A stretch of 64,000 bases of DNA from SAR86 cluster bacterium AG-422-O05 (lineage in GTDB: Bacteria > Pseudomonadota > Gammaproteobacteria > Magnimaribacterales > D2472): assembly GCA_003213495.1 (NCBI GenBank), contig QCMW01000001.1, forward strand, positions 434,001 through 498,000, given 5' to 3'. Below are positions 30,113 through 36,281 of the stretch, one piece after another. The notes under the pieces are model-generated. The model worked only from the letters and a program-made list of their open reading frames with translations. It was not told the DNA's origin and did no database searches. A program made the position numbers and the translations under genes. Positions within the stretch are counted from its first letter, which is position 1; every line of letters starts with the position of its first letter.

Positions 30113-30280
30113 ATGATTGAAGTAGCAATATTAGTTCCAATAATGTGGATAGTAATGTCTGCTTTATATATGTTTCTTCTTAAAAATATTGAGGGGACTA
30201 AAGGTATAACCTCCGAATATCAAACAAAAGATGGCATTAAAAGAACTGCAAAAAAAGATAGAGAAGACTTTATAGTATGA
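30113..30280 (+). CDS. Small single-pass membrane protein (55 residues)
   Basis: A short reading frame begins at ATG 30113, 6 bases after the nitronate monooxygenase, and ends in TGA overlapping the next ATG (ATGA). Residues ~4-24 are a hydrophobic helix (VAILVPIMWIVMSALYMFLL) and the rest is Lys/Arg/Asp-rich with a cytoplasmic-tail character (KDGIKRTAKKDRED). The tight coupling on both sides supports a real gene. No family is recognised. Confidence 0.6.
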   Translation: MIEVAILVPIMWIVMSALYMFLLKNIEGTKGITSEYQTKDGIKRTAKKDREDFIV

Positions 30281-31143
30281 CAAAAGCCATTGGCTTTATT
30301 GGTTTAGGGGTTATGGGATTTCATATGGCAGGCCATCTATCGAAACACAATCAAATTGCGGTATTCAATCGAACTAAAAAGAAATCTGAAATTTGGTCCG
30401 CTAAATATAACGGTAAAATTTGTAGCTCACCTGCTGACCTTGCAAAAATATCTGATGTCATCATATTGTGTGTTGGTAATGATGGCGATGTAAGAGATAT
30501 AGTTACAGGCTATCAAGGATTGCTTAAAAACTTAAAGCCAGGATCGATAATTGTTGACCATACTACAACTTCTGCAAAACTAGCCAAAGAAATATATGAA
30601 TTATTAGATTCGAATGGTATTTTTTATATTGATGCGCCAGTGTCTGGTGGTGAAGTGGGTGCTCAGTCAGGGATGCTATCGATAATGGCTGGTGGCAACA
30701 AAGATGCTTACGAACAAATTAAAAGTATTTTAGAACCTTACACAAAACTTATTAAATATATGGGCTTAAGTGGTTCTGGTCAGTATACAAAAATGGTCAA
30801 TCAAATATGTATAGCTGGACTAATACAAGCACTAGCAGAAGGCATAAATTTTTCTGAAAAGGTAGGGTTAGATACTAAGAGTGTCTTAGAGGTTGTGTCT
30901 AATGGAGCTGCTCAATCATGGCAAATGGATAATAGATGGCTGACAATGTTAGATGATAATTACGATCACGGCTTCGCCGTCGACTTAATGAGAAAAGATT
31001 TAGAAATAGTTTTAGACGAAGCAAATTTAAACAACATAAATATTGAAATAACAAAAATCATCAATGAATTTTATAAGGATATACAAAAAGCAGGAGGTGG
31101 GAAATGGGATACTTCAAGCTTGCTAAAAAGAATAGAAAACTAA
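30277..31143 (+). CDS. NAD(P)-dependent 3-hydroxyisobutyrate dehydrogenase-like protein
   Basis: The 288-residue enzyme has a GFIGLGVMGFHMAGHL N-terminal nucleotide-binding motif (residues ~5-20) and the beta-hydroxyacid-dehydrogenase signature DAPVSGGEVGAQSG (residues ~119-132). A catalytic Lys is in SGQYTKMVNQICIAG near 168-182. Members oxidise 3-hydroxyisobutyrate, tartronate or glyoxylate derivatives; specificity is not assigned. It shares a four-base overlap with the upstream small gene and another with the convergent gene at its end. Confidence 0.85.
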   Translation: MTKAIGFIGLGVMGFHMAGHLSKHNQIAVFNRTKKKSEIWSAKYNGKICSSPADLAKISDVIILCVGNDGDVRDIVTGYQGLLKNLKPGSIIVDHTTTSAKLAKEIYELLDSNGIFYIDAPVSGGEVGAQSGMLSIMAGGNKDAYEQIKSILEPYTKLIKYMGLSGSGQYTKMVNQICIAGLIQALAEGINFSEKVGLDTKSVLEVVSNGAAQSWQMDNRWLTMLDDNYDHGFAVDLMRKDLEIVLDEANLNNINIEITKIINEFYKDIQKAGGGKWDTSSLLKRIEN

Positions 31144-31508
31144 ATTAAAAATAACTTTGATGAGTATACAAATACTCCATAACCAATAACAATTAACGCA
31201 GAGGCTATTTCAAGTGAATCAATTTCAGTTGGGTTTAGATTAAGCTTCGAATAGTAATTCTCAGGATTTGAGATCAACCAAAAAACTCCAGCTATATGTG
31301 TAAACATAATTAAAGCCACTATCCAGTTAAATGGTTGGGAACTAAAAACAATTATCGAACCTAAGATAATGAATATGAATTCTATTGTTAGGACGACATT
31401 GATATTTTTTCTTTTTAATAGATATCTTAATAAACTGTAGTTCTTGATATAGGTGTAAAAAAGCACAAAACCATATACGAAATAAAGTGATGACAAAATA
31501 TAAATCAT
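31140..31508 (-). CDS. Small membrane protein of unknown family
   Basis: The 122-residue protein has about four membrane segments (residues ~2-18, 38-55, 62-80 and 100-118). A basic loop, RYLLKRKNINV, lies before the second. I do not recognise the family. It is convergent with the hydroxyisobutyrate-dehydrogenase-like gene, overlapping its stop by four bases. Confidence 0.55.
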   Translation of the reverse strand: MIYILSSLYFVYGFVLFYTYIKNYSLLRYLLKRKNINVVLTIEFIFIILGSIIVFSSQPFNWIVALIMFTHIAGVFWLISNPENYYSKLNLNPTEIDSLEIASALIVIGYGVFVYSSKLFLI

Positions 31509-31571: not shown

Positions 31572-33059
31572 ATGTTATCTAAGTCTAAATTTATCCTTGG
31601 TCAGCAATGTGCTAAATCATTTTGGCTAGATCTTAATAATGTACCGCCGACTAATGAGGAAGATGATGCAGCCAAAGATAGATTAAGGGCTGGTGACGAA
31701 GTTGGCGAAATCGCAAAAGAAATATTTCCTGGAGGCAAAGAAGTCCCATACTTAATTGGCAATCATAAGGAGATGTTTGAAATAACTAAAGATTTAATTA
31801 AAGAGGGCGCAACTACTATCTACGAAGCTTCATTTATTTATGATGATATTTTTGTTCGTGTAGACCTTATGAACAAAACAGATAAAGGTTGGGATATTTA
31901 TGAGGTCAAATCTTCAACAAAAATTAAACCTTATCATGAGTACGATGCTAGCATTCAATGGCATGTCTTAAAGGAGCTTAAATTGTTAAGTTTAAATGAT
32001 GTTTTCATTGTAACTTTAAACAATCAGTATGAAAAAGAAGAAAACATCATTCCACTAAAATATTTTACTATCGATCCAATCACCAATGTTGCAAATGAAA
32101 AAAAGAATGAAGTAAAACATAAAATCCTAGAATTAAAAAATATTTCAAACTTTGATAAAGAACCTTTAGTAGATATTGGATCACATTGCAAAAAACCACA
32201 TAGTTGCGTCTATTTGGATAAATGCTGGCCAGAGAGCATGAATGACGTTGATTCGATATTTAGACTTTACAGATTACCTTTAAAAAAGAAACTTGATTTT
32301 TATAATAAAGGAATAGATAGATTTGAAAACATAAAAGATGTTTCATCTTTAACGTCGACACAGCAAAATCAATTTAAAGCATATCAAACACGATCTCCAG
32401 TAATAGATAAAAAAAAGCTAGATGATTTTATTTCAAAAGTTGAATATCCAATAACTTATTTTGATTTTGAAACTTTTACAGATGCTGTGCCAGTATTTAA
32501 AAAGCAGAGACCTCACATGCAGATGCCTTTTCAGTATTCTATGCACATTCAATCTTCTAGAGATGAGTTATTAGATATCAATGACCCACACCCAGAATTT
32601 ATTGCAAATCACTTAGATGATCCAAGACGGCAGATAGCTGAAAGTTTAATCAACAACTTTCCTAAAAGTGGAACAATCATGGCCTACAACGAGTCATTTG
32701 AAAAAAGCTGTATTGAAACTTTGGCTGAGTTTTGTCCTGATCTTGAGAGCAAACTTCTAGGTCTTAATGATCGATTTCTTGATTTAATTATTCCTTTCCG
32801 TGGAGGCGCTTATTACGATTCAAATTTTTATGGAAGTTTCTCAATAAAAAAAGTATTGCCAGCACTCTGTCCTGATGATAAAAATTTAGACTATAAATCA
32901 TTAGAAATTAGTAATGGTGGGCTAGCATCAAGTTCCTATAAAAAATTAAGAGGCCAAACAGATAAAGAAATAGCACATACTAGAGAGGAACTATTTAAAT
33001 ACTGTCGTCTTGATACTTTTGCTATGTACGAAATTTATCGGAAACTATTATCACTTTAG
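31572..33059 (+). CDS. Cas4/AddB-like nuclease fused to a DEDD-exonuclease-like DUF2779 domain
   Basis: The 495-residue protein appears to have two enzymatic parts. Residues ~1-225 resemble a Cas4/AddB-type PD-(D/E)xK nuclease: D98, E111-V-K113 in YEVKSS, Q129, and four Cys at 13, 206, 212 and 218 that could hold an Fe-S cluster. Residues ~290-495 (DUF2779) show an RNase H-like DEDD pattern with D298-F-E300, acidic residues near 400-404, and Y477-CRL-D481. The combination implies a DNA or RNA processing enzyme. DUF2779 proteins have no established job. Confidence 0.7.
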   Translation: MLSKSKFILGQQCAKSFWLDLNNVPPTNEEDDAAKDRLRAGDEVGEIAKEIFPGGKEVPYLIGNHKEMFEITKDLIKEGATTIYEASFIYDDIFVRVDLMNKTDKGWDIYEVKSSTKIKPYHEYDASIQWHVLKELKLLSLNDVFIVTLNNQYEKEENIIPLKYFTIDPITNVANEKKNEVKHKILELKNISNFDKEPLVDIGSHCKKPHSCVYLDKCWPESMNDVDSIFRLYRLPLKKKLDFYNKGIDRFENIKDVSSLTSTQQNQFKAYQTRSPVIDKKKLDDFISKVEYPITYFDFETFTDAVPVFKKQRPHMQMPFQYSMHIQSSRDELLDINDPHPEFIANHLDDPRRQIAESLINNFPKSGTIMAYNESFEKSCIETLAEFCPDLESKLLGLNDRFLDLIIPFRGGAYYDSNFYGSFSIKKVLPALCPDDKNLDYKSLEISNGGLASSSYKKLRGQTDKEIAHTREELFKYCRLDTFAMYEIYRKLLSL

Positions 33060-33806
33060 TTAAAAAGAATAAATAAAACTTGAACTAAATGTTTGGTCTG
33101 ATTTTTCAGCTAAGTCAGGAGGATCATTGTCAAAAGATTCAGAGATTTTGAATTTTATTAAAAAATTTTCTGAAACAGGGATGTTATAAGATAACGAGAC
33201 AGAATATTTATAGTCGTTACTAAAATCCTTAAAGGAAGGTTGAAAAAATATAGATCCTGAGAGAAAGGAATTATTTTCAAAGCTTATGCTCCTATTTAAA
33301 AATAAACTAGCTCTGTTGGTTGATTTTTTATCTCCCAATAAACTATTTTCGCTTTCATGTAAGATACTTACACTTAATATAATATGTTTGATTTCAGAAA
33401 ATCTTAAACCAAAACCAACAAGATCTCGTTTTTTGTAGCTTTGAAAAGGATTTTCACTAGACTGAAAATATGTTTCAAAGTTATAGTTTTTTTCTTCATT
33501 TTTCCAAAGGTATCTTGCGTGCAAGAAAAAAGATTCATCCTCAACAACATCTTCATTAGTTCTTTCTGATTTTTCCAAAAGAAACATACTTTCTGATTTA
33601 AGAGTGTTTTTAACTAGAGCTATACCAATATCGTAATCATCTCTTTCTTCATTTCCTCTTGTTCCACTAAATGCAAATTCTATATCCCTAAAACTACCAA
33701 CCTCATTCGATCTTCGAACATCTTCTATGTTAGCAATTGGGGAAGCACTAATTGTTAAAGCAGGTATTAAAAATATAAATAAAAGAATTTTATTTAAATC
33801 GAACAA
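33060..33806 (-). CDS. Predicted outer-membrane beta-barrel protein with TTG start
   Basis: No ATG precedes the signal-like segment, so TTG at 33806 is the best start; the product begins with a hydrophobic stretch (ILLFIFLIPALTISA). The remaining ~230 residues contain many alternating strands (NNSFLSGSIFFQPSF, YKYSVSLSYNIP) ending with SSFIYSF, a terminal Phe typical of barrels. It is preceded, on the same strand, by the ion channel gene with two bases between, so the two are likely cotranscribed. Confidence 0.55.
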   Translation of the reverse strand: MFDLNKILLFIFLIPALTISASPIANIEDVRRSNEVGSFRDIEFAFSGTRGNEERDDYDIGIALVKNTLKSESMFLLEKSERTNEDVVEDESFFLHARYLWKNEEKNYNFETYFQSSENPFQSYKKRDLVGFGLRFSEIKHIILSVSILHESENSLLGDKKSTNRASLFLNRSISFENNSFLSGSIFFQPSFKDFSNDYKYSVSLSYNIPVSENFLIKFKISESFDNDPPDLAEKSDQTFSSSFIYSF

Positions 33807-33808
33807 TT

Positions 33809-34519
33809 TTATTTACTCGAAGTCTCTGTTTGTTTATTTAAAACAACATCAACAACAATACCTACGAAAAGATTTAATACAACTATTCCGCAAATAAATA
33901 TATAACTTACAAAATAGGACCATCCATAAGGAATAGTATCTGTAATTGGTTTCATCACGTTCTCCCAGCTCGACATTGTACCTACCTGAACTAATGTAAT
34001 CATAGATTCGCCTAATGTATTGAATTGGGCATTAGGTATTTCAGAAAAATAGATAGTTCCAACAACAGCGTATATATAAGTAATAATGAATATTAATAAT
34101 AATATGTAGATGCTTTTCCTAAGTGATACAAATAAATTCTCCACTACATTTTGTAGCTCAGGCACAAATGAAATAATTCTTAACAATCTAAACAAACGAA
34201 GCAGCCTAAGGAGCAATACAGATTCTGTAAGACTTGCGGGTATTAAAGATCCTATAACAATAATCAGATCAAAAACATTCCACCCATCAGAAAAAAATTC
34301 TTTGGTTGTCTTTTCTCCAAGAAATCTAATAATTATTTCAATTAAAAAAAATACCGTTACAGCTATATCAGCGATTAGTATTAGATTGTAAATGTTTGGA
34401 TTTAGTGAATAGGTCTTAATTCCAATAGTTAAGGAAGATATAAGTATTACAGCAATAACAGTATATTGAAAACTTTTTTTCTGCTTAAGATTCTCACAGA
34501 ATTCAGCAATTTTTTTCAT
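33809..34519 (-). CDS. Six-helix voltage-gated-type ion channel
   Basis: The 236-residue single-domain channel subunit has S1-S4 and pore helices. The voltage-sensor S4 has four Arg three apart (R105, R108, R111, R114 in LLLRLLRLFRLLRII). The pore segment reads TLVQVGTMSSWENV, so the filter is T181-M-S-S-W185. Bacterial sodium channels such as NaChBac have TLESW, so the acidic filter residue is replaced by Ser. The overall architecture, with a tetramer expected, is clear; ion selectivity is not. It begins at ATG 34519 and is followed closely by a barrel gene. Confidence 0.78.
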   Translation of the reverse strand: MKKIAEFCENLKQKKSFQYTVIAVILISSLTIGIKTYSLNPNIYNLILIADIAVTVFFLIEIIIRFLGEKTTKEFFSDGWNVFDLIIVIGSLIPASLTESVLLLRLLRLFRLLRIISFVPELQNVVENLFVSLRKSIYILLLIFIITYIYAVVGTIYFSEIPNAQFNTLGESMITLVQVGTMSSWENVMKPITDTIPYGWSYFVSYIFICGIVVLNLFVGIVVDVVLNKQTETSSK

Positions 34520-34571: not shown

Positions 34572-34868
34572 CTATCGAATGAATGTTTGCCAAATTGCTG
34601 CAACAAATACATCTGAAAGAGACTCTGATCCTTTAATCATTCTCTTAATGTCTTTAACTTTTGCTTTTCGACTGCTACCAGTGCCATCTCTGATATCACC
34701 ATTTTTGACATTGCATAATGTAGAACTTCCAGTACCCCGCCTAACTTTATCATCTCTTACATTACATAATGTAGAACTACCAGTTCCCTTTCTTAGTTTA
34801 TCACCCCTAATGTTAGCAATGGTCTTACCGCCGTCTTTTAGCTGTTCTCTTCTGTACTCTAATTTCAT
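34572..34868 (-). CDS. Beta-flower-type repeat protein (98 residues)
   Basis: The protein is built from tandem copies of a unit of about 17 residues, with cores NIRGDKLRKGTGSST, NVRDDKVRRGTGSST and NVKNGDIRDGTGSS. This matches the 4-fold beta-flower repeat family (RGDKIREGTGSS pattern) seen in many bacterial hypothetical proteins. The short basic C-terminal segment (KVKDIKRMIKGS, DVFVAAIWQTFIR) follows. A GAGGAG site precedes the ATG. The function is unknown. Confidence 0.65.
   Translation of the reverse strand: MKLEYRREQLKDGGKTIANIRGDKLRKGTGSSTLCNVRDDKVRRGTGSSTLCNVKNGDIRDGTGSSRKAKVKDIKRMIKGSESLSDVFVAAIWQTFIR
34708..34809. repeat. Tandem 51-base imperfect repeat inside the beta-flower gene
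   Basis: Two adjacent 51-base units (34708-34758 and 34759-34809) each begin with ACATT(G/A)CATAATGTAGAAC and encode one protein repeat. A degenerate third unit flanks them. Near identity at the DNA level suggests recent duplication and possible copy-number change by slippage. Confidence 0.7.
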
Positions 34869-34968
34869 TTTGACTCCTCAATTCAATGAATACTTTAGAT
34901 AAAAATATAGATGTTTATTAAACATATTGCAAACTGCGAGAAGCTCTAATTACATATTTATAACGATA

Positions 34969-35040
34969 TTACCTATTTAAGGAACCAATTCCTGATGCTC
35001 CGGCTGTTATTACTACATTAAGATTTTTAAGATGATTCAT
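34969..35040 (-). pseudogene. Truncated short-chain dehydrogenase (SDR) 5' remnant
   Basis: A 23-codon reading frame (ATG at 35040, TAA at 34969-34971) encodes NHLKNLNVVITAGASGIG and then diverges to a stop. The TxGxxGIG motif is the NAD-binding start of SDR enzymes, so this is very likely the stump of an SDR gene lost after its first 19 residues. It begins four bases after the GIY-YIG stop. The gene body is absent in the neighbouring DNA. Confidence 0.65.
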
Positions 35041-35044
35041 CTCG

Positions 35045-35848
35045 TCAGGGAAGGTTAATTATTTTATTATTTTTATCAAATTTATAGACTTCTCCTTTCT
35101 TGTTATAGCTATAGTGATCGGGTGATCCTCGAGCTCTAATATATTTTTTTACTGACTTGCCAATGTATAGTTTTGCGAATTTGGTGTGAGGCTCTATTAA
35201 CCTACCAACAAATTCAAATCTTTCTCTAATTCCATAATCTTTCAAGTAATATTGATGACTTGGGTCATTTCTATAGTGAAATGTTGTACCATCTGGATAC
35301 CAGGCTGCAATTTTATAAACTCTCTTAACAACCCCTTGATGAACTAAAAAAGCATATTCAGCAAAATCTTTTTTTGGCCCAAGATTCCATGCAGATCTAG
35401 TTCTGTCATAATGAAGGGCTTCTGATACATCAGGATTCCATGGATTTCTAACTATCATAATAACCTTATGCTTTATGGTTACATCTTTTGCATTGTAATG
35501 ATCAATAAGTTCTTGAGGGCTAGAATTAGTTAATCCAGAACCACTTCCTTTAACAGCGTTGGCAAGGTTATCTTTACCAAATAATGCTATCGCTGCCGTT
35601 TCAGCTGCTTTAGCTTGCTGCAAGCTGAGACCATGGATAATTATTTTTACTGTCGGCCGCATTCCCGACTTTCTTATTTTATTTATTATGGTTCGGACTT
35701 CAGAATTATGCGACTGCTTTAGATGTTCAAAAGCTCTATTTTCAGTACCCCGACCAATATAAAAAGGAAAATTCGTTTTATCTGTTGGATCATAATATGC
35801 ATATAGATAGTGTCTTAATGAATTATAAATATTTGATGGGAACTTCAT
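35045..35848 (-). CDS. LEM-3-like GIY-YIG domain protein with extra C-terminal domain
   Basis: The N-terminal part (residues ~13-100) has the GIY-YIG signature: HYLYAYYDP followed by FYIGRGTENRAFEHL (Y30-I-G32), and an AAETAAIALFG helix. LEM-3-like GIY-YIG proteins are nucleases or nuclease-like. A C-terminal region (~120-255), with LHYDRTRSAWNLGPKKDFAEY and YKIAAWYPDG, is seen in other hypothetical bacterial proteins and may bind nucleic acid; this is inference. GC-richer patches and a neighbouring broken SDR hint at transfer. Confidence 0.7.
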   Translation of the reverse strand: MKFPSNIYNSLRHYLYAYYDPTDKTNFPFYIGRGTENRAFEHLKQSHNSEVRTIINKIRKSGMRPTVKIIIHGLSLQQAKAAETAAIALFGKDNLANAVKGSGSGLTNSSPQELIDHYNAKDVTIKHKVIMIVRNPWNPDVSEALHYDRTRSAWNLGPKKDFAEYAFLVHQGVVKRVYKIAAWYPDGTTFHYRNDPSHQYYLKDYGIRERFEFVGRLIEPHTKFAKLYIGKSVKKYIRARGSPDHYSYNKKGEVYKFDKNNKIINLP

Positions 35849-35864
35849 AATAATGATCTATTAT

Positions 35865-36281
35865 TTATAGATCTCCATCTTTTCGAATTTCACTTCTTTG
35901 AATCTCAAATTTTTCACCATATCTAGCAGCTAATTTCTCTTGATTTTCATTTATTACTTCATAAGGATCTAAACCAAGAGCTGCACATGCTGTAATCCAA
36001 TACCACATTATGTCCCCAAGCTCTCTTTTCATGTGAAATATATTATCTTCTGATGGAGGCTTGCCTTGTAAAAATATTTTTTTAACAATTTCTACAAATT
36101 CACCAGCTTCACTTCCTAGCCCAAGTGCTGCAGTTAACAATCTAGGTGTTTTTATAGAGGATTCTTTCTCAATTTTGTTAAAGCTCTCTGATAGAGCCTC
36201 AAGATCTAGGCTAGGATTACTAGTAACTTTTGTAACAAAATCTGTGTAAGTTTCAAAAAACTTTTTTACTTCTTCGGTCAT
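35865..36281 (-). CDS. MazG-like nucleotide pyrophosphohydrolase
   Basis: The 138-residue helical protein carries the MazG metal motifs EAGEFVEIVKK (ExxE-like, near residue 56) and KRELGDIMWYW (ExxD, near 85-95). These enzymes hydrolyse (d)NTPs to monophosphates and pyrophosphate, often clearing damaged nucleotides. A GGGAGAAA site precedes the ATG. It sits between the GIY-YIG gene and the RpiR regulator on the same strand. Confidence 0.85.
   Translation of the reverse strand: MTEEVKKFFETYTDFVTKVTSNPSLDLEALSESFNKIEKESSIKTPRLLTAALGLGSEAGEFVEIVKKIFLQGKPPSEDNIFHMKRELGDIMWYWITACAALGLDPYEVINENQEKLAARYGEKFEIQRSEIRKDGDL

Follow-up and report, generated by a model that had tools for sequence, protein, structure and literature searches.

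What is left of a gene when a short open reading frame begins like a known enzyme and stops almost at once? SAR86 bacteria are abundant in the surface oceans, and one of their genomes (G000, 1.28 Mb) raises this question. A 23-codon frame that starts like a short-chain dehydrogenase (SDR) stands beside a gene for a GIY-YIG nuclease, and its truncation might be tied to that gene. The window analysed here is a stretch of 64,000 nucleotides of this genome, and positions without a locus name refer to it. Around the frame the following features were found.

35865–36281, minus strand: mazG-like gene, fixed border of the hotspot (Pfam MazG; same place in relatives)
35045–35848, minus strand: PD-T4-3/CMoRE-like nuclease gene of the GIY-YIG type, 267 aa, with mazG on one side and the SDR remnant on the other (PADLOC, PDB)
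34969–35040, minus strand: 23-codon open frame, MNHLKNLNVVITAGASGIGSLNR* (sequence; flagged in the first-pass annotation)
34981–35040, minus strand: SDR remnant, codons 1–20 of the lost short-chain dehydrogenase, MNHLKNLNVVITAGASGIGS (comparison with L039, and position weight matrix)
34977–34980, minus strand: TTAA between the two remnants (sequence; putative reading of the junction)
34950–34976, minus strand: probable remnant of a quinone oxidoreductase (QOR) gene, last codons, IGNIVINM* (position weight matrix and position)

The frame is the start of a lost SDR gene

A position weight matrix (PWM) was trained on eight intact SDR starts. The score of the remnant was reached at 1 of the 127,930 window positions on both strands, and the same count was obtained when the two nearest references were left out of the matrix. 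The SDR-like start at 34981–35040 is not a chance match. BLASTN aligned 59 bases of it at 83% identity with the SDR start of L039, a locus in which the SDR gene lies directly after mazG, and 49 of 60 bases were identical. Nine of the 11 differences, counted by eye, fell at third codon positions (binomial P = 0.0014). This suggested that the piece was probably under protein-level selection, as coding sequence, until recently.

Aligned with the intact starts, the remnant contained TAGASGIG, the glycine-rich N-terminal cofactor-binding motif that it shares with the SDR family. It differs from the family in that the remainder of the enzyme is gone, leaving a pseudogene scar. A complete SDR enzyme is expected to carry a catalytic YxxxK. 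Here the frame stops after 23 codons, nothing SDR-like was seen in the window past codon 20, and the genome gave no SDR match at E ≤ 1e-40. The first-pass annotation had thus been right that the motif is real and that the rest of the gene is missing. Its length of 19 residues was a count to GIG, and 20 of the 23 codons are SDR-like. The gap of 4 bases that it gave between the ATG of the frame and the stop of the GIY-YIG gene was confirmed (35041–35044).

An intact SDR gene beside mazG was then to be expected in relatives, as the annotation had proposed, and it was found at exactly this place. Among 34 SAR86 genomes of the same genus (G000 counted), eight carried a full 261-aa SDR starting 8–17 bases past the mazG stop and followed by a zinc-type quinone oxidoreductase (QOR) of 326–327 aa. 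A search of all 34 genomes (SDR at E ≤ 1e-40, QOR at E ≤ 1e-60) gave both genes in the identical eight, each in single copy and at the mazG site, with no second copy. Neither gene was matched in the window genome at these thresholds. A further locus outside the 34, L070, had the pair at the same place, with the QOR gene cut by the contig end. Most of the relatives are incomplete single-cell or metagenome assemblies (60–97% complete), so that absences are lower bounds. No parent of the window's own SDR-QOR pair was found among them.

A second lost gene and the junction

The bases after the SDR fragment resembled the 3′ end of QOR, and the fragment is therefore best read as an SDR 5′/QOR 3′ scar. 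After TTAA came ATAGGTAATATCGTTATAAATATGTAA, which reads IGNIVINM*; intact QOR ends read IGNIVIE(I/V)* or IGNIVVEV.*. The QOR-like tail started 4 bases past the SDR remnant and was out of frame with it, and a clean in-frame fusion would need one base fewer at the join. The TTAA probably reflects decay or a frameshift at the junction.

Plain local alignment of the 114-base stretch after the SDR piece with seven QOR ends, against shuffled controls, was weak (P = 0.04–0.46). As this was not convincing, a position-specific test was applied. With a PWM built on eight intact QOR ends, for a 7-codon block picked after the match had been noticed, 4 of 127,960 window positions scored as high, and 0.0009 such hits were expected within 30 bases after the SDR break. 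The match is partial and covers 27 bases. Because the block was chosen post hoc and the plain alignment was weak, the QOR half is held as probable: the window scar probably carries the QOR 3′ end, short of proof. This second lost gene and its probable tail had been missed in the first-pass annotation, as had the phage-defence family of the GIY-YIG gene.

Scars with another junction in other genomes

Three other loci, L035, L042 (genome G020) and L043 (genome G004), carried SDR 5′/QOR 3′ scars with a junction different from that of the window. In each, a frame of 13–14 codons started with SDR codons 1–10 and ran into the QOR tail at TAATATTGT. The intact SDR and QOR genes of L039 each contain this 9-base word, and the two genes of L040 each contain an 8-base variant of it. 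The position of the window junction, elsewhere than that of the other three, made at least two losses likely.

These loci were recognised in a scan that covered 77 of 80 mazG loci on the first pass, in which the eight training loci of the matrix necessarily score. With an expectation of at most 0.0007 chance hits in the stretch, L035, L042 and L043 stood out. L076, L051 and L058 (0.01–0.05) were at about the level of chance for 77 tests and were not counted. L041 and L084 looked scar-like by eye and did not pass the PWM scan. The SDR-start scan gave no hit in L069, L077, L080, L082 and L111, and the QOR-end scan covers the other loci. The PWM scan detected no scar in the nearest relative, L084, and no intermediate stage was seen. 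The core-gene tree interleaved scarred and intact genomes. With recombination acting at the locus, we make no claim for a single origin of the shared scar with later spread or for several origins.

A deletion as the best explanation

We consider it highly probable that the locus combines a deletion scar, a GIY-YIG gene that arrived separately, and a hotspot with recombined cargo. The ancestor would have had mazG, SDR and QOR in a row, the order still kept by relatives. About 1.7 kb would have been lost, from just past SDR codon 20 to about 8–10 codons before the QOR end. The breakpoint on the SDR side is shown by the comparison; that on the QOR side is probable. The loss would likely have run through a short repeat at the join, of the GGTTCC type, where the SDR reads ..IGS and the QOR ..SGS. 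The leftover would later have drifted out of frame. The GIY-YIG gene would have entered the gap between mazG and SDR, most simply as a separate event, while the cargo of the hotspot would have been gained, lost and exchanged through homologous recombination in the conserved flanks. Of the alternatives left by the first-pass annotation, an insertion or a deletion, the comparison points to the deletion. The loss of the two genes is ordinary gene loss in a defence-type hotspot.

Alternatively, the SDR start could be the edge of an imported block of beta-flower, channel, DUF481 and DUF2779 genes, with the recombination having ended inside the SDR gene. The block does stand directly after the scar, recombination does exchange cargo at the hotspot, and the QOR-tail evidence against import is moderate. 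Nevertheless, an internal deletion, unlike the import of foreign sequence, is expected to leave a QOR tail right after an SDR start, and such a deletion was seen in three related genomes. We regard import as unlikely and retain the deletion.

The GIY-YIG gene

The GIY-YIG protein matched the PADLOC PD-T4-3 model PDLC04031 (E = 5.7e-30) over positions 5–254 of 256, near full length, and the CMoRE crystal structures 9U75 (E = 5.3e-19, residues 2–247) and 9U7U (E = 7.9e-19, residues 2–248). It also matched PHROG 5356 (function unknown; E = 2.6e-37) and the Pfam LEM-3-like GIY-YIG family. The tyrosines of the GIYxY-YIG motif, Y14, Y16 and Y30, aligned to Y17, Y19 and Y31 of CMoRE (taken as PDB chain residues 22, 24 and 36, by an inferred offset of 5) and were invariant in all five SAR86 copies. 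R38 and E83 were likewise invariant in the five and aligned with an R and an E of 9U75; from our reading of the fold they would be the catalytic Arg and Glu. An AlphaFold2 structure from the five-sequence alignment had a mean pLDDT of 43.9, too poor to use.

CMoRE belongs, according to its published description (PMC12923530), to the type IV modification-dependent nucleases and in E. coli cuts DNA that carries hydroxymethylcytosine (hmC) or its glucosylated form (ghmC), and PD-T4-3 is reported to be active in its native E. coli host as well (PMC12409345). The window gene resembles them in being a single gene with an N-terminal GIY-YIG domain and a C-terminal region aligned to residue 248. On the other hand, it lacks the four consecutive acidic residues of CMoRE, in a loop called autoinhibitory there (PMC12923530), and the two 4-residue inserts that flank this loop. 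The DDDD of 9U75 aligned with HNSE, and the corresponding loop of the five SAR86 copies had at most two consecutive acidic residues. The gene was therefore filed as PD-T4-3/CMoRE-like and not as CMoRE proper. Unlike PD-T4-3 and CMoRE, it has its place in a hotspot on the chromosome of a marine bacterium with a streamlined genome, and its function is putative. The most likely role of its product is that of a phage-defence nuclease of the PD-T4-3/CMoRE kind, encoded by a single gene.

The PD-T4-3 family was present in 5 of 203 genomes of the SAR86 order. For the class, 369 genomes were sampled and 11 had it; G000 is counted here, and some of the genomes are short fragments. All five copies of the order sat in the mazG hotspot, in different slots: between mazG and the scar in the window, after QOR in G015, before a gene for a membrane-type protein (TM120) in L033 and L083, and between TM120 and the next flanking gene (HIBDH) in L035. 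Phage homologues were 26–31% identical among the 15 records listed of 19 matched. Viral contigs held one weak relative (32% over 74 residues); no phage vector was thus found.

The nuclease gene and the loss

The first-pass annotation had suggested that the loss was linked to acquisition of the GIY-YIG gene. This link was not borne out. The same GIY-YIG family stood beside an intact SDR-QOR pair in G015. G020 and G004, in which L042 and L043 are scarred, had no GIY-YIG match genome-wide, at a completeness of 87% and 76%. In L035 the gene and the scar were about 3 kb apart. G015, G020 and G004 suggested that the gene did not necessarily cause the loss.

The same genomes bear on the possibility that the gene encodes a free-standing homing endonuclease and, having inserted ahead of SDR, caused the SDR loss by the break that this enzyme makes. 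The gene does lie 4 bases before the remnant. Homologues in the large phages OBP (26.7% identity) and N1M2 (29.0%) carry the annotation of a putative homing nuclease, which applies to 4 of the 15 records listed of 19 matched, and a group I intron endonuclease model matched weakly (17.7 bits against a cut-off of 56). A homing endonuclease, unless housed in an intron or intein, would be expected at one conserved insertion site, whereas the gene occupied at least four different hotspot slots in five genomes. G015 carries the gene with SDR-QOR intact, and G020 and G004 are scarred without it. The match to PD-T4-3 and CMoRE, moreover, was near full length with the C-terminal region included, and the best phage homologue, PhiR41_1, also matched the PD-T4-3 model (E = 1.6e-23). 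We judge this origin improbable, a little more so than import of the neighbouring block.

It is very unlikely that the 23 codons form a genuine small gene, or encode a leader peptide, with an SDR-like start: the frame has an ATG and a stop and starts 4 bases past the GIY-YIG stop, yet the same short frame occurred in none of the 80 mazG loci (130 bases after mazG examined), the three other short frames end elsewhere, running into the QOR tail, and the homologous frame elsewhere is a 261-aa enzyme. The two results named beforehand as speaking against a broken SDR gene, a short frame conserved in relatives and a lack of SDR in any neighbourhood, were both not seen.

A variable hotspot between mazG and TM120

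With the deletion scar and a separately arrived nuclease gene as the preferred reading, the remaining genes of the spot were compared. Beyond the scar, the window reads as follows.

34572–34868, minus strand: beta-flower protein, cargo (Pfam Bflower_3, E = 9.1e-7, below the curated cut-off)
33809–34519, minus strand: ion-channel gene, cargo (Pfam Ion_trans)
33060–33806, minus strand: DUF481 protein, cargo (Pfam)
31572–33059, plus strand: DUF2779/Cas4-like nuclease protein, cargo (Pfam DUF2779, E = 9.5e-37; weak PADLOC Cas4, E = 5e-7)
31140–31508, minus strand: TM120, 122-aa membrane-type protein, the other border (adjoins mazG in empty-spot relatives)
30277–31143, plus strand: beta-hydroxyacid (3-hydroxyisobutyrate) dehydrogenase-type gene (HIBDH), fixed flank (NCBIfam matches all below curated cut-offs)

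The junctions between core genes were surveyed in 30 rows from 29 genomes, L046 and L051 being two contigs of one MAG. The window and G015 were included; the other 5 of the 34 genomes were without a complete mazG match. The gap between mazG and TM120 exceeded 500 bp in 12 of the 29 rows that had both genes, and 16 of these 29 spots were empty or nearly so. Such gaps were also present between RpiR and mazG (9 of 28 rows) and between TM120 and HIBDH (1 of 28, L035). Five of the eight core junctions examined had none: LipB–TRAP, TRAP–UvrD, UvrD–RpiR and HIBDH–FMN2 (28 rows each) and FMN2–amidohydrolase (21 rows). The interval from mazG to TM120 is a variable hotspot, and the variable spot of the first-pass annotation is thereby upheld. 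Its cargo comprised the metabolic pair, defence nucleases, channels and beta-flower proteins. The beta-flower gene of the window was 84% identical to that of L050 as DNA.

In L056 and L036, the SDR, QOR and TM120 genes were 98–99% identical as DNA, against 79–82% for UvrD, RpiR, HIBDH and FMN2. From the 3′ part of mazG to TM120, identity was 96–100% in 120-base steps. UvrD, RpiR and FMN2 of L056 were 95–97% identical to those of L057, which is without SDR-QOR. This pattern marks L056 as one clear exchange by homologous recombination through the flanks. Exchange of this kind is shown for this one genome and is presumed for the rest.

Several smaller observations were made along these loci. The side between RpiR and mazG is a second variable spot, where 8 of 28 rows have some 1.7 kb of additional sequence (L040, L041, L043, L044, L056, L057, L058 and L122 being examples of extra sequence there) and L048 has 2.4 kb. 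L048:9272–10414 (SAR86A) holds a partial tandem duplication of mazG, in which about 102 residues of a 229-aa frame make up the upstream copy. L122:19094–19399 (minus strand) is a truncated KAP NTPase, a further gene stump of this hotspot; its 101 aa agree at 90% identity with the beginning of the L083 gene (697 aa). The DUF2779 frame at L079:11407–11970 (minus strand) has 187 residues, the others about 495, and adjoins a KAP NTPase gene. Repeat units like GATCAAAAACATAGAGCTGAT, read by eye, lie ahead of the channel gene at L084:13200–13450; one frame appears DQKHIADLKIY-like, possibly a beta-flower-like repeat protein. The beta-flower copies of the hotspot diverge strongly: that at 34572–34868 was 37% identical to L122:16925–17233, although the L050 copy was 90% identical to that of the window.

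Defence-type islands

The neighbours of the GIY-YIG genes in the hotspot were KAP NTPases, a DNA methylase–HNH protein, DUF2779 proteins, channels and beta-flower proteins. Ten islands were counted, leaving out loci with SDR-QOR only or whose extra genes fell only in clusters C3, C4 and C14. The PADLOC tally refers to gene clusters, each judged by representative members that were scanned. Eight of the ten islands (L033, L035, L067, L068, L079, L083, L122 and the window) had at least one recognised family. L050 and L084 would have one only if the weak match of DUF2779 to Cas4 were accepted. As a control, 10 flanking core proteins were scanned; nine were silent, and UvrD was hit strongly by the DRT helicase and GajB models. 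A lone PADLOC match to a helicase, NTPase or methylase is therefore no proof of defence.

A PvuRts1I-like SRA nuclease (PDLC03210) was found in 7 of 203 genomes, three of which also had PD-T4-3. We take the specificity of PvuRts1I-like nucleases to be hydroxymethylcytosine DNA. In all three genomes the two nucleases were in the same island with other genes between. The hypergeometric P for this co-occurrence was 0.00025, for genomes that are not independent, since two of the three share one gene block.

A block of a beta-flower gene, then a 103-aa-type gene, then an opposite-strand DUF2779 gene recurred in L068, L079, L122 and L067. In L067, two small genes lay between, and in L147 a PvuRts1I-like gene lay within the block.

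From these gene contents we tentatively propose, as a possibility that falls short of an even chance, that the mazG spot may be a phage-defence hotspot of SAR86 with two unrelated families of hmC-DNA nucleases, and that its recurring uncharacterised neighbours (the beta-flower protein, its 103-aa partner, the DUF2779 nuclease and the voltage-gated-type channels) may be new defence genes.

Discussion

Aquatic prokaryotes exchange flexible genomic islands through homologous recombination (Lopez-Perez et al. 2014, PMC4033161), and the spot resembles these islands in having variable cargo between fixed core genes and exchange through the flanks. The replacement islands of that account are present in all strains and typically encode exposed structures. 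At the mazG spot, by contrast, 16 of 29 rows were empty or nearly so, with more than 500 bp in 12 of the 29 and an island after TM120 in L035, and much of the cargo matched defence models; exchange by recombination in flanking core genes was seen in one case (L056/L036).

A hypervariable region of SAR86 that holds genes for outer-membrane modification has been reported (Rusch et al. 2013, PMC3569297), which its authors liken to islands thought to alter interactions with predators or phages. The mazG spot differs from the region described there in being small, beside mazG and made up of other genes. Hypervariable segments have also been described for marine populations (PMC1821060). No published description of the mazG spot was found among the literature matches listed, and none of these, by titles and the starts of abstracts, had SAR86 defence genes as its topic. 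The phage defences of SAR86 seem to be little described.

A fixed address that collects defence genes would allow such genes to be harvested from SAR86 genomes. In the scars, gene loss from a streamlined genome can be seen in clean form, probably having taken place between short repeats. If two hmC nuclease families do share islands, phages with modified DNA would be expected among the viruses of SAR86, and the co-occurring families of modified-cytosine nucleases would offer a direct test for modified phage DNA.
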